DNA of 51,369 nt from assembly GCA_027460525.1 (NCBI GenBank), contig JAPZAS010000027.1, forward strand, positions 1-51,369, written 5' to 3'. The notes under the pieces were generated by a model. That model was not told the DNA's origin, ran no database searches, and saw only the letters and a list, made by a program, of their open reading frames with translations. This document shows, one piece after another, positions 1 to 34,949 of the stretch. Within the stretch, counting starts at the first letter, position 1; every line of letters begins with the position of its first letter. This stretch comes from Candidatus Methanoperedens sp. GTDB lineage: Archaea > Halobacteriota > Methanosarcinia > Methanosarcinales > Methanoperedenaceae. Made by a program: the position numbers and the translations under genes.

Positions 1-704
1 GCTTCGGCTGCTCTTTCAATTAGCCTCGCCACTTGGGTACACTCCCTGGCCCGTTCTTCAAAACGTAATATACAACGCTGGCAGTATAGCCCGTACTAAT
101 GCCTCGCGACATATTCCTTCGCTATACAGATCCTTTCACGCTGTATCGCTCCATCACCATCCGATTTCAGGCGCTTTGCACCTCCCTTCTTGGGGTACTT
201 TTCAGTTTTCGTTCACACTACTACTACGCTATCGGTCTCAAGACGTATTTAGTTTTGGAAATTGATGACTCCCAAATTCCCGCGAGAATTCCGACCCACG
301 GTACTCAAGACCAAGCCACAGTCCACCAGTTTACGTCTACGTGACTATCACACTCTATGGTCTGACGTTCCAGACAAGTTCAACTTCGCTGGTTTGCACT
401 GTATATGGCCTGGCTTATGACACTACATCTCCCTATCCTTTCGGTAGGGATTCGGTTTAAACTATGCCGTTTTCACTCGCCGTTACTGGCGGCATCTCTA
501 TTGATTTCTTTTCCTGCCCCTACTAAGATGTTTCAATCCGGGGCGTTCCCGATCCTTTCGGATCAGCACTTGCGCACTGAGAGGTCTCATTAGGAGATCC
601 TCGGTTCAAAACCTCCATGCGGTTCGCCGAGGCTTATCGCAACTTGGTACGTCCTTCTTCAGCGCTTGAGCCGAGCCATTCACCGGATGGTATAATTTGC
701 CAGA
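1..704 (-). rRNA. 23S ribosomal RNA, 5' part (truncated by window edge)
   Basis: The reverse strand reads as the first ~700 nt of an archaeal large-subunit rRNA. Near 640-700 it contains the conserved 5' domain with GGCTCGGCTC and GAAGGACGT, followed by the helix that reads AGTGCGCAAGTGCTGATCC. The mature 5' end is estimated near 704 by comparison with archaeal 23S starts and may be off by a few bases. The remaining ~2.2 kb lies beyond position 1. It follows 16S and tRNA-Ala on the same strand, the usual euryarchaeal order. Translated frames across it are artefacts. Confidence 0.95.
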
Positions 705-29034: not shown

Positions 29035-29070
29035 GAAAAAGAAGAAAGAAAATCGGTGTATCTCTACACC
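29035..29070 (-). terminator. Terminator of the mtr operon
   Basis: GGTGTA and TACACC pair around a GAGA tetraloop, with the mtrH stop codon inside the hairpin. On the mtr strand a T-rich tract (TTTTCTTTCTTCTTTTT) follows directly. Confidence 0.7.
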
Positions 29071-32308: not shown

Positions 32309-33063
32309 GCTACCATCCCTCCTACAATCAGTACTGCCACGACTCCACTTATCAGACTCACAATGAAGCTTGAGACTGCATCCTTTGGAAGAACGCGCCT
32401 GAACTTGGGGTCGTGGAATCCTTCAATGGTGCCTGCCACGCCATAGGATGGGATAACAGAATTCACGTAGAATACGCCCATGGTGAATACACCTGCCACC
32501 GCGGCAGCGCTCAGTTTAGCCGTCTCGGGATCGGGTATTATTGCAGCCAGAGCGCCGTGGTATATTCCATAAAGTACATAGTAGATCAGTGAACCCCCTA
32601 TTCCGCCGAGTGCAGCGCCTATTAATCCGCTCACAAAGCATACTGTCGGAACTCCATGCCCCTGGGTTCCTTTGGATATATAGATATCCTGACGCGAGCC
32701 TGTGATGGGGTCGCGTTTAACCTGGGCTGAAGCAAACGGCACTCCTATGCCATATGCGTACATAATACCGCATGCAATCCCCACACTTGCCATCATTATC
32801 ATGGAACCCATTGCTCCGGCAGCCAGTACCAGAGCAACCGATGCACCGGGTTCATTGGTATACAGGTGACTTGCTGTTAACAGGCCCACAAGACCTGAAC
32901 CTGCTGCCAGTTCCACCGTCCCTGTACCGATTCCTGTAGCCTGAGCCATTGCAGCCGGTGCACCGCCCACAGGAATGAAGTGGACAGCAATACAGATGAG
33001 AGTACCGCTGATGGCTATCAGGAGAATGTTTGTAAGTGTTACCGGGTCGATTAATGAAACCAT
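32305..33063 (-). CDS. mtrD: Tetrahydromethanopterin S-methyltransferase subunit D
   Basis: This 252-residue integral subunit has about six membrane helices. Family stretches include HFIPVGGAPAAMAQATGIGTGTVELAAGSGLVGLL near 27-61, YGIGVPFASAQVKRDP and GTQGHGVPTVCFVSGLIG. It is part of the Na+-translocating core with MtrC and MtrE. The start overlaps the mtrE stop by one base (TAATG). Confidence 0.97.
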   Translation of the reverse strand: MVSLIDPVTLTNILLIAISGTLICIAVHFIPVGGAPAAMAQATGIGTGTVELAAGSGLVGLLTASHLYTNEPGASVALVLAAGAMGSMIMMASVGIACGIMYAYGIGVPFASAQVKRDPITGSRQDIYISKGTQGHGVPTVCFVSGLIGAALGGIGGSLIYYVLYGIYHGALAAIIPDPETAKLSAAAVAGVFTMGVFYVNSVIPSYGVAGTIEGFHDPKFRRVLPKDAVSSFIVSLISGVVAVLIVGGMVA

Positions 33064-33965
33064 TATGCTCTTGCCTCCTTCTCAATTTTCTCTTCTTTAT
33101 AAGGGCCGTATTGATTTTTCATCTGGACTTCCAGCAGCCTGTTCAGGATGACCATCACAACCACGATGATAAAGCCTGCAATTATCGTTTTCCATACATA
33201 TCCAAAAATTATTACAGGCCAGAGCGTGAGAAACACGGTGAGACCAAAACCAATACCGGTTGCAGGTCCTCCGAATTTTGCGCAGAACCAGACATTATCT
33301 ATACTGTTCCTGAGCCCTGACTCTCCTTTCCTCACGATGCGCCCCGAAAGCGCTGTATTCAGCCCGACGCCGAACTCACGGTTCTGGTACTGTCGCTCTC
33401 CACCATAATGCACATCACCGACTGCTGAACCAATGCATCCTACCGTTATTCCCCAAATTAGTGCCAGGAACGGAATCGGGAACGGGAATCCAAGCAGCGT
33501 AAACTGGAGATATGCTATCGCCACAATGCAGAAATTAGCAATAAAATTATGCGAGATAATAGACGGCGTCGTATACCTCAGCATGTCCATGTAGAGGGGC
33601 TGCTTGAACCTGCTCTGGCTCGCTATCCTGCCTGCATGTGCGGTTGTTGAAAAAATGCCGTAAATGATTGCTGCGACAAAAGCGCCTATTATTATCGTTG
33701 TCAGTGGATAAAACTTAGCATTTAAAAGTACCACTGTTACAACGCCGCTGGTCACTCCTGAAAAACCGTAGCTTACAGGCTCGCCTGAAATTGCCTTATT
33801 ATATATTCGATGCAAAAAACCCATTTGAGGAGCTAATTGTACCTGGGAGTTTGCATTGCTCTGGGAACCTACATCAGTTTCCAAATCCTCCATGCAACCC
33901 GCAATAGCAGCAAGCGCTCCCATAAGTGCCAATACAGCCATGCCCATGGTTATGTCTAAGACCAT
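33063..33965 (-). CDS. mtrE: Tetrahydromethanopterin S-methyltransferase subunit E
   Basis: This 300-residue integral subunit is the first gene of the operon. It has an N-terminal helix (MGMAVLALMGALAAIAGC), a loop with MEDLETDVGSQSNANSQVQLAPQMGFLHRIYNKAISGEP, and conserved PFPIPFLALIWGITVGCIGSAVGDVHYGGERQYQN, a region implicated in Na+ passage. A strong TAGGAGGA site lies 10 nt upstream. A perfect inverted repeat (33997-34020) sits between it and the promoter. Confidence 0.98.
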   Translation of the reverse strand: MVLDITMGMAVLALMGALAAIAGCMEDLETDVGSQSNANSQVQLAPQMGFLHRIYNKAISGEPVSYGFSGVTSGVVTVVLLNAKFYPLTTIIIGAFVAAIIYGIFSTTAHAGRIASQSRFKQPLYMDMLRYTTPSIISHNFIANFCIVAIAYLQFTLLGFPFPIPFLALIWGITVGCIGSAVGDVHYGGERQYQNREFGVGLNTALSGRIVRKGESGLRNSIDNVWFCAKFGGPATGIGFGLTVFLTLWPVIIFGYVWKTIIAGFIIVVVMVILNRLLEVQMKNQYGPYKEEKIEKEARA

Positions 33966-33996
33966 TTATTTTTCCTCCTATAACTGAAAATCACCA

Positions 33997-34020
33997 TTAA
34001 AACTATCTGGCTAGTTTTAA
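33997..34020 (-). promoter_or_regulatory. Perfect inverted repeat at the mtr operon start
   Basis: TTAAAACTA and TAGTTTTAA are perfect 9-bp arms with a 6-nt spacer. A TATA-like ATTTATAACG lies at 34039-34048 on the same strand, so transcription should begin near 34018, inside the upstream arm. It is either an operator at the start site or a hairpin at the very 5' end of the mtr mRNA. Confidence 0.6.
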
Positions 34021-34038
34021 CGGACTACCTTATTATAC

Positions 34039-34048
34039 GTTATAAATC
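34039..34048 (-). promoter_or_regulatory. TATA box of the mtr operon
   Basis: On the transcribed strand GATTTATAACG lies ~75 bp before the mtrE ATG and ~25 bp before the inverted repeat, in the 105-bp gap between uspA and mtrE. So mtr has its own promoter although uspA reads in the same direction. Confidence 0.5.
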
Positions 34049-34070
34049 TTTCGAATTGTCGTGCTTGTTT

Positions 34071-34949
34071 TTATAAAGTGATTTTTTTTATTTTTGCCCT
34101 CACAATAAGAACAGGTCTCTTTGTATTCTTAACCACATCAAAAGCCGTATCTCCCAACAATAATTCTTTGAACCAACCTTTGCCATGAGAGCTCATCGCT
34201 ATCAACGATGCGTCTTCATCCTCGGCTACCGAGCAAATCTCCTCTGCCGGGCTCCCCACACGGACATGCGCCTTTACCTTAAAGCCCGCACTGCTAAGTT
34301 CATCATCGAGGTCATCAAGCTTCTTCTTTGCTTCCTGAACATTAGCTTCTATTTCCTCCTCAGTTTCACCTCTGGTGACCACATGCACCAGTTCTATCTC
34401 TTCTATACTATCCAATTTTCTTAATAATGATAGTGCCTTCTCAGCAGGCTCAGAAAAATCAGTGGGATAAACCACTTTTGAGAAAATCTTATCGCAGAAC
34501 TTTTGAAGTTTTTCTCCCTCAAGGCTCTCTACTAATTTATAACGCATGAGAAGGACATCTGTCTTTGCATGGCGCAGTATATCAAGTGCGACACTTCCAA
34601 GAAGTAGACCCTTGATGAGGCTTTTCCCATGGGCATTCATAACGACTAAAGAAACTTTTTCCTCAGCTACAGTTTCTAGAATGGAATGTGAAACACCACC
34701 TTCTGTTATCACCTCTACCTTTGTTTTGACTTTTAACCCGATACTTTCAAGATGTTCTTTATGCTCCTCTAAATGAATCCTGGCATCCTCGATATGCTGT
34801 CCGTGAAGCCAGCCATGCTTTGAAGGATGCGTTGCATCAACAACATGCAAAACCACCACTTCTTTTACCCCAGGAATCTCACCAATGCATTCAAGGGTTT
34901 TCTGCGCATACTCTGAAAGATCTGTCGCAAATAACACCTTTTCAAACAT
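34071..34949 (-). CDS. Tandem universal stress protein (two UspA domains)
   Basis: This 292-residue cytoplasmic protein is two UspA domains. The first is ~1-145 (VLFATDLSEYAQKTLECI, VMNAHGKSLIKGLLLGSVALDILRHAKTDVLLMR). The second is ~160-290 (VVYPTDFSEPAEKALSLLRKL, AMSSHGKGWFKELLLGDTAFDVVKNTKRPVLIVR). Both C-terminal motifs fit the G-x2-G-x9-G(S/T) ATP-binding pattern only loosely, with Leu/Glu near the second glycine. AGGAGGA lies before the ATG. It separates the DUF1646 gene from mtr on the same strand. Confidence 0.93.
   Translation of the reverse strand: MFEKVLFATDLSEYAQKTLECIGEIPGVKEVVVLHVVDATHPSKHGWLHGQHIEDARIHLEEHKEHLESIGLKVKTKVEVITEGGVSHSILETVAEEKVSLVVMNAHGKSLIKGLLLGSVALDILRHAKTDVLLMRYKLVESLEGEKLQKFCDKIFSKVVYPTDFSEPAEKALSLLRKLDSIEEIELVHVVTRGETEEEIEANVQEAKKKLDDLDDELSSAGFKVKAHVRVGSPAEEICSVAEDEDASLIAMSSHGKGWFKELLLGDTAFDVVKNTKRPVLIVRAKIKKITL

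Follow-up and report, generated by a model that had tools for sequence, protein, structure and literature searches.

The mtr operon and its upstream region

The window (the whole stretch of 51,369 bases that was analysed) carries a complete mtrEDCBAFGH operon on its reverse strand, with all eight subunits (E, D, C, B, A, F, G and H) matched by Pfam and the genes extending to position 29064. Mtr is the sodium-translocating methyltransferase, central in methane metabolism (PMC12774963, excerpt). The gene upstream of mtrE reads in the same direction and matches the universal stress protein family. The features at the 5′ end of the operon, all on the reverse strand, are:

33063..33965, reverse strand: mtrE, first gene of mtrEDCBAFGH (Pfam MtrE, E 1.6e-119)
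33974..33979, reverse strand: Shine-Dalgarno sequence AGGAGG, read from the sequence and lying outside the repeat
33988..33997, reverse strand: conserved ATGGTGATTT on the 3′ side of the repeat, from alignments; also in most leaders of genus g8
33997..34020, reverse strand: inverted repeat TTAAAACTA-GCCAGA-TAGTTTTAA, read from the sequence
34000-34017, reverse strand: conserved inner core AAACTA/TAGTTT of the repeat
33994..34023, reverse strand: extended stem with 12 RNA pairs, one of them G-U
34016..34020, reverse strand: predicted start zone, from published TATA spacings (PMC11409679, PMC5378194, excerpts)
34021..34038, reverse strand: conserved TATA-to-repeat spacer GTATAATAAGGTAGTCCG, from the alignment of 29 leaders
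34039..34046, reverse strand: TATA box TTTATAAC, read from the sequence and aligned in 29 leaders
34048..34055, reverse strand: TTCGAAAG, one of two versions among the 29 leaders, which we take from its position and general background to be a BRE-like element

The two arms of the repeat (33997-34005 and 34012-34020) pair perfectly over 9 bp around a 6-nt spacer. Its outer edge lies 26 nt downstream of the start of the TATA box (34046) and its other end 31 nt from the mtrE ATG (33965), bearing out an earlier note on this DNA, which had described a perfect 9-bp repeat with a 6-nt spacer, about 25 bp after a TATA box and ending about 31 nt before the mtrE ATG. The extended stem (33994-34023) is Watson-Crick in 11 of 12 pairs and complete as RNA with the one G-U; its outer pairs are often lost in relatives and are probably untranscribed. 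Folding of 34024-33963, part of which is probably untranscribed, gave -14.1 kcal/mol (z -3.0), a value equalled in 2 of 200 shuffles.

A chance origin of the repeat upstream of mtrE is unlikely. When the intergenic stretch (105 nt) was shuffled 5000 times with dinucleotides preserved, 21 shuffles contained a perfect repeat of at least 9 bp with a spacer of 3-10 nt; in the whole window such repeats number 4, and 5 shuffles of it averaged 0.6. A search of 33800-34200 against Rfam returned 6 matches, none above the gathering score (best 21.4 bits, cut-off 48.1).

A scan flagged one terminator-like hairpin (shuffle mean 0.2). This call favours a promoter-proximal attenuator, in which such a hairpin would halt early elongation unless melted, for instance by a TRAM RNA chaperone. 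TRAM0076 is known to melt 5′UTR hairpins in Methanococcus maripaludis (PMC6705878, excerpt), and there are 3 TRAM-domain matches in the genome of the window; all 14 of 14 control genomes have TRAM matches as well, so their presence says little. The stem, however, contains only 3 GC pairs, the T-run that follows is interrupted (TGATTTT) and polymerase would have made very little RNA by the time it passes the hairpin. We consider attenuation highly unlikely.

A predicted transcription start at the edge of the repeat

In the direction of transcription the leader runs BRE-TATA-GTATAATAAGGTAGTCCG-repeat-ATGGTGATTT-Shine-Dalgarno, and the archaeal core promoter, a TATA box with an upstream purine-rich element, is kept in relatives (29 leaders). 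In Methanosarcina about 23 bp separate the TATA box from the transcription start downstream of it (PMC11409679, excerpt), and in Methanolobus psychrophilus the distance between promoter elements and start is about 19-22 nt (PMC5378194, excerpt). Applying these distances to the TATA box of the window gives a predicted mtr start of 34020-34016, either inside the left arm or on its outer edge, so that the position of the repeat would coincide with the transcription start as judged from both organisms. With the start in this range, a short hairpin may form the 5′ end of the mRNA. The energy of this hairpin at 37 °C would depend on the exact start (34020, -6.4 kcal/mol; 34018, -4.3 kcal/mol; 34017, -2.8 kcal/mol), and for an RNA starting at 34016 it is mostly lost and is not the best fold any more.

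Two further observations concern this part of the leader. By eye, TAATCC or a close variant of it, which in Methanoperedenaceae is TAGTCC, recurs at a near-fixed distance after the mtr TATA box (TATA start +18 to +22) in most leaders of four families. GGTGAT was considered as a second Shine-Dalgarno sequence and dropped, because its GG is more variable than its TGAT.

A leader block conserved within Methanoperedenaceae

mtrE was present in 29 of the 34 Methanoperedenaceae genomes searched. Alignment of the mtr upstream regions, the check suggested in the earlier note, recovered a promoter/leader block of about 55 nt in 29/29 of these genomes, with the repeat as its start-proximal part. Within the repeat, conservation is limited to an inner core of 6-7 bp, which is kept in most leaders; the full 9-bp repeat of the window is not kept across the family. 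The outcome that the note had named as refuting its reading, a lack of conservation, thus did not occur for the block, while for the repeat conservation is confined to the core. At mtr the core AAACTA-N5..8-TAGTTT is exact in 22/29 genomes, nearly so in 3 (L018 and L030 with a G-U pair, L020 with one pair lost at the loop), weakened in 2 (L025 and L026, ANME-2d being among these; 7/8 pairs are possible but do not form the best fold) and lost in 2 (L010 and L023). The distance from ACTA to TAGT is 8 in 22 of the 29 leaders and differs in 7. Some leaders with another spacing (5 to 7), among them that of the window (6), L008, L013 and L027 (5), keep their arms. A pseudoknot between the loop and downstream sequence (CCA with TGG) was dropped by eye because in several relatives one of the two sides is gone and its partner is still there.

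Several genomes stood out in the course of this comparison. G001 and G032 each carry an additional mtrE-like gene that has diverged (43% identity) and by eye has no leader block; upstream of both (L186 and L187) lies AATTATCC-TTTTTA-GGATAATT. G016, a family genome listed as 100% complete, gave no mtrE match though mcrB and mch were found, which may reflect an assembly gap or a real loss. Separately, the mcrB leaders (L084 and others in L069-L098; 27 of 30 family loci read) appeared by eye to be strongly conserved and structured, with pairings of a far-upstream GATACAA with a downstream TTGTATC and of ATAGAAC with GTTCTAT; as an RNA, the mcrB leader may be of greater interest than the hairpin at mtr.

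Leaders of other Methanosarcinales

R1, a sequence-only model built from the 29 family mtr leaders, was run against 185 genomes of the order, with the best 30 candidates scored per genome. It matched all 8 genomes of genus g8 (family f3) in shortened form (model positions 11-16 to 45-54), so that a shortened leader block occurs in an ANME-2 genus. Seven of the 8 matches lie directly upstream of mtrE and the eighth, in G051, within a tandem array at a contig end; the g8 repeat reads AAACTAGT-N4-ACTAGTTT. The array in G051 (L136, 1-194) consists of 3.3 copies (99% match) of a 58-nt unit that is the mtr leader block, and the mtrE contig of that genome ends at the ribosome-binding site. Weak R1 matches (E 0.001-0.05) were found in 10 genomes of f5; 9 of these lie away from the listed mtrE, and the tenth genome, G100, has no mtrE place listed.

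Of the 142 genomes elsewhere in the order that bear mtrE, 43 supplied leaders (15 f3, 10 f4, 18 f5, 0 f2); one more, G051, was dropped because it had no leader. A further 57 named loci, partly from the same genomes, were also read. At least 7 of 8 pairs are kept in 14/15 f3 leaders, with G-U pairs in genus g7, where the ACTA-to-TAGT spacing is 10. The f3 leaders show a mean folding z of -1.6 in the interval TATA+22..68 (n=15) and of -2.2 in TATA+28..58, where 10/15 reach p<0.05. In f4 (mean z -1.0) and f5 (-0.4) the leaders show a weak excess, and by eye other small hairpins are possible there near the matching place; a general hairpin rule for the order is therefore not established. Methanosarcina and near relatives share a 10-pair stem with 97% of cells paired (15 sequences) and no covariation, and a Methanolobus-like group (9) has a longer stem in which one pair is changed on both sides, with an unfavourable covariation term.

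A second hairpin in f3 mtr leaders (9 sequences) showed 5 double-change cells against 2.4 after shuffling (26/500 as high) and a covariation score of 0.350 against 0.304 (16/500 as high), and was unremarkable in double-change pairs (2, shuffles 1.6) and in additional pair types (13, shuffles 12.7), so that covariation support is modest and mixed. It is conceivable, and in our estimation quite unlikely, that mtr of Methanosarcinales carries an ancient module, a TAATCC-like element spaced almost constantly from the TATA box plus a start-proximal hairpin that changes its sequence between families, acting as an RNA control point. If so, the module would be common to methanogens and ANME-2 oxidisers across the order and would provide dedicated control of the sodium-translocating methyltransferase in methane formation and oxidation alike.

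Folding and covariation of the mtr leader

Leaders of mch (17 of 30 loci) and of the S-adenosylmethionine synthetase gene (26 of 30 loci) served as controls, the remaining loci having failed the start or TATA pattern. Mean identity for mtr, mch and the synthetase was, respectively, 0.87, 0.74 and 0.80 in alignment columns 9-28, and 0.81, 0.77 and 0.80 in columns 29-50. The idea that conservation of the mtr leader is uniquely strong was rejected, as both control leaders are almost equal over the matching region.

Folding gave a different picture in the interval TATA+22..68, where the mtr leaders had a mean z of -1.8 with p<0.05 in 12/29 family leaders (related sequences, and so not independent trials), against +0.3 and 0/17 for mch and -0.2 and 0/26 for the synthetase. 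The contrast is smaller in other intervals. In TATA+26..72 the mean z was -0.8 for mtr (1/29 at p<0.05), +0.5 for mch and 0.0 for the synthetase; in TATA+28..58, the interval nearest the predicted transcript, it was -1.5 for mtr (7/29), +0.1 for mch (1/17) and -0.9 for the synthetase (7/26). What distinguishes mtr is thus folding in TATA+22..68 and not conservation.

RNAalifold predicted no structure for the alignment of 29 leaders, which is gappy at the hairpin. Because this consensus fold gave no pairs, covariation was counted in a gap-free subset with spacing 8 throughout, comprising 22/29 family and 8/15 f3 leaders (30 rows, 25 distinct); it excludes the 7 family leaders whose spacing differs, and f3 leaders were tried from g8 and g6 only. 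In these 30 rows the focal hairpin scored 0.090 against 0.096 after shuffling, with 288/500 shuffles as high, and its outer pairs were often unpaired. As the inner pairs hardly vary, this test does not discriminate between an RNA stem and conserved DNA.

These results bear on a reading in which only the start region is constrained: an A-tract at the start and a T-tract after it would be kept for initiation or promoter escape, and their complementarity would be incidental. The nearly equal conservation of the mch and S-adenosylmethionine synthetase leaders, the focal hairpin without covariation and the similar proportions of significant folds in TATA+28..58 (synthetase 7/26, mtr 7/29) all speak for it. 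Such a constraint does not, however, account for the absence of a folding excess from the controls in TATA+22..68, for the 7-8 of 8 pairs in 14/15 f3 leaders or for a stem that reaches 12 pairs in the window, and we regard it as an unlikely explanation.

A search for further sites

In the 34 family genomes, the best 150 of about 280-2,700 R1 candidates per genome were scored at E<=0.01. R1 matched the same 29/34 genomes as mtrE, which is expected because the model was built from those leaders. Full-length matches occurred at mtrE only, counting G019:C203, a fragment bearing mtrE sequence; the remaining matches were a partial one (G019:C175), a weak partial one (G032:C158) and two antisense to the repeat itself at mtr. 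In the genome of the window, R1 gave no other match below E 0.08 among the best 150 of 1400 candidates. The repeat pattern was found there at no other place with up to 1 mismatch, at one with 2 and at three with 3 (control pattern, 8), and the core pattern occurred once only, leaving no second convincing site. Across the 34 genomes the bare core pattern matched 22 non-mtr places (control pattern, 158), of which 10 are a different palindrome with GGG/CCC-like ends. A regulon for the repeat is therefore not supported by the R1 and pattern searches (best 150 or best 30 candidates per genome), and neither a regulon nor an autoregulated regulator was visible in them; since only best-ranked candidates were scored, weak further sites could have been missed.

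The searches also turned up two other patterns. The different palindrome, similar to GGGAAACTA-N7-TAGTTTCCC (L220-L229), occurs in ten family genomes, three times next to a gene in which a P-loop ATPase-like motif was recognised by eye. Both genomes of genus g2 (L138 and L139) have a stretch resembling the mtr spacer and left arm, ATAATAAGGTAGATGATAAAAAACTATGC, before a gene that by eye is fumarase/aspartase-like (E 0.005 in the family search, 0.012 in the order search).

The earlier note had offered either a repressor site or a 5′ hairpin. As a DNA operator, the dyad over the start would be bound by a dimeric transcription factor that blocks or modulates mtr initiation. The dyad centre lies about 8-12 nt after the predicted start, its arms are kept as sequence and not by covariation, the upstream spacer, probably untranscribed, is strongly conserved, and the spacing is 8 in 22/29 family leaders; a regulator with a single target would, moreover, remain compatible with one genomic site. 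In Methanosaeta harundinacea, FilR1 binds the mtr promoter region in ChIP and EMSA (PMC3991700, excerpt). The note's statement that mtr regulation in methane-oxidising archaea is undescribed agrees, for Methanoperedens, with the open-licence literature, where none of the papers listed dealt with the mtr promoter, start site or transcriptional control in that genus. A putative nickel-response regulator, MA1395, has an M. maripaludis homologue coexpressed with mtr (PMC5112694, excerpt) and is a lead for this reading. On the other side, the half-site spacing is not fixed (it differs in 7/29 family leaders and is 10 in g7), and the genome of the window shows no convincing further site, visible regulon or autoregulation. 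The operator is in our view a possible explanation, though a rather doubtful one. Of the two proposals in the note, the hairpin fits somewhat better, given the spacing that differs in 7/29 and the lack of a second site.

A possible 5′ hairpin on the mtr mRNA

Taken together, the data describe a promoter/leader block that is conserved and linked to mtr and whose start-proximal part is a short repeat, itself conserved in part; the signal is genuine and modest. For its function we tentatively favour a 5′ hairpin acting at the RNA level as the likeliest reading, short of an even chance, in which we infer the start, folding in vivo and an effect on stability. A hairpin is a better fit than a rigid dimer site because the ACTA-TAGT spacing varies while the arms stay good, and the lack of a second convincing site favours RNA over a protein operator in the same way. 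The block at mtrE in 29/29 genomes, the folding excess in TATA+22..68, the pairs kept in 14/15 f3 leaders, the different possible hairpins of other families and the second f3 hairpin also speak for this reading. Against it stand the focal hairpin without covariation, the empty consensus fold, the four leaders with a lost or weakened core, the weak folds from the predicted starts and the smaller contrast with controls in other intervals.

The repeat would then be the transcribed end of the conserved mtr promoter/leader block, and a short AU-rich hairpin would open the mtr mRNA, preceded by at most a few unpaired nucleotides. A start at 34018 would give a 7-bp stem, AAAACUA/UAGUUUU, with a 6-nt loop, leaving the ribosome-binding site downstream and outside the hairpin. 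Such a closed 5′ end may slow 5′-to-3′ decay or otherwise tune the output of the operon. Were mRNA lifetime governed by this hairpin, a key energy operon would carry an archaeal 5′ stability element. The leader, compact and conserved, lends itself to mapping of the start site and to reporter assays in Methanosarcina, which is genetically tractable.

Comparison with known systems

Stabilising hairpins at the 5′ terminus are known from bacterial mRNAs, for example E. coli ompA. The mtr leader resembles these in having a stem predicted to lie within a few nucleotides of +1 and an unmasked ribosome-binding site. Unlike them, it faces archaeal decay enzymes, and its hairpin would be weak in an mRNA that begins at the predicted start. 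When growth conditions of M. acetivorans were compared, the shifts in mRNA stability were uncorrelated with RNA folding energy (PMC5112694, excerpt), which counts mildly against a general link between folding and stability, though that work is not about 5′ ends.

The FilR1 system of Methanosaeta harundinacea concerns the same operon, but the term 'inverted repeat' is absent from the main text of PMC3991700, and by eye a Methanotrichaceae leader (L310) and a Methanothrix leader (L313) are without the mtr repeat. In Methanococcus maripaludis, TRAM0076 melts 5′UTR hairpins of 9-13 bp, with expression raised strongly in two of three cases and slightly in the third (PMC6705878, excerpt). These hairpins and the mtr repeat are alike in being short and in lying in a short archaeal 5′UTR. 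Unlike the TRAM0076 targets, the mtr hairpin is AU-rich, sits at the predicted 5′ end, belongs to one operon and is partly conserved across species.
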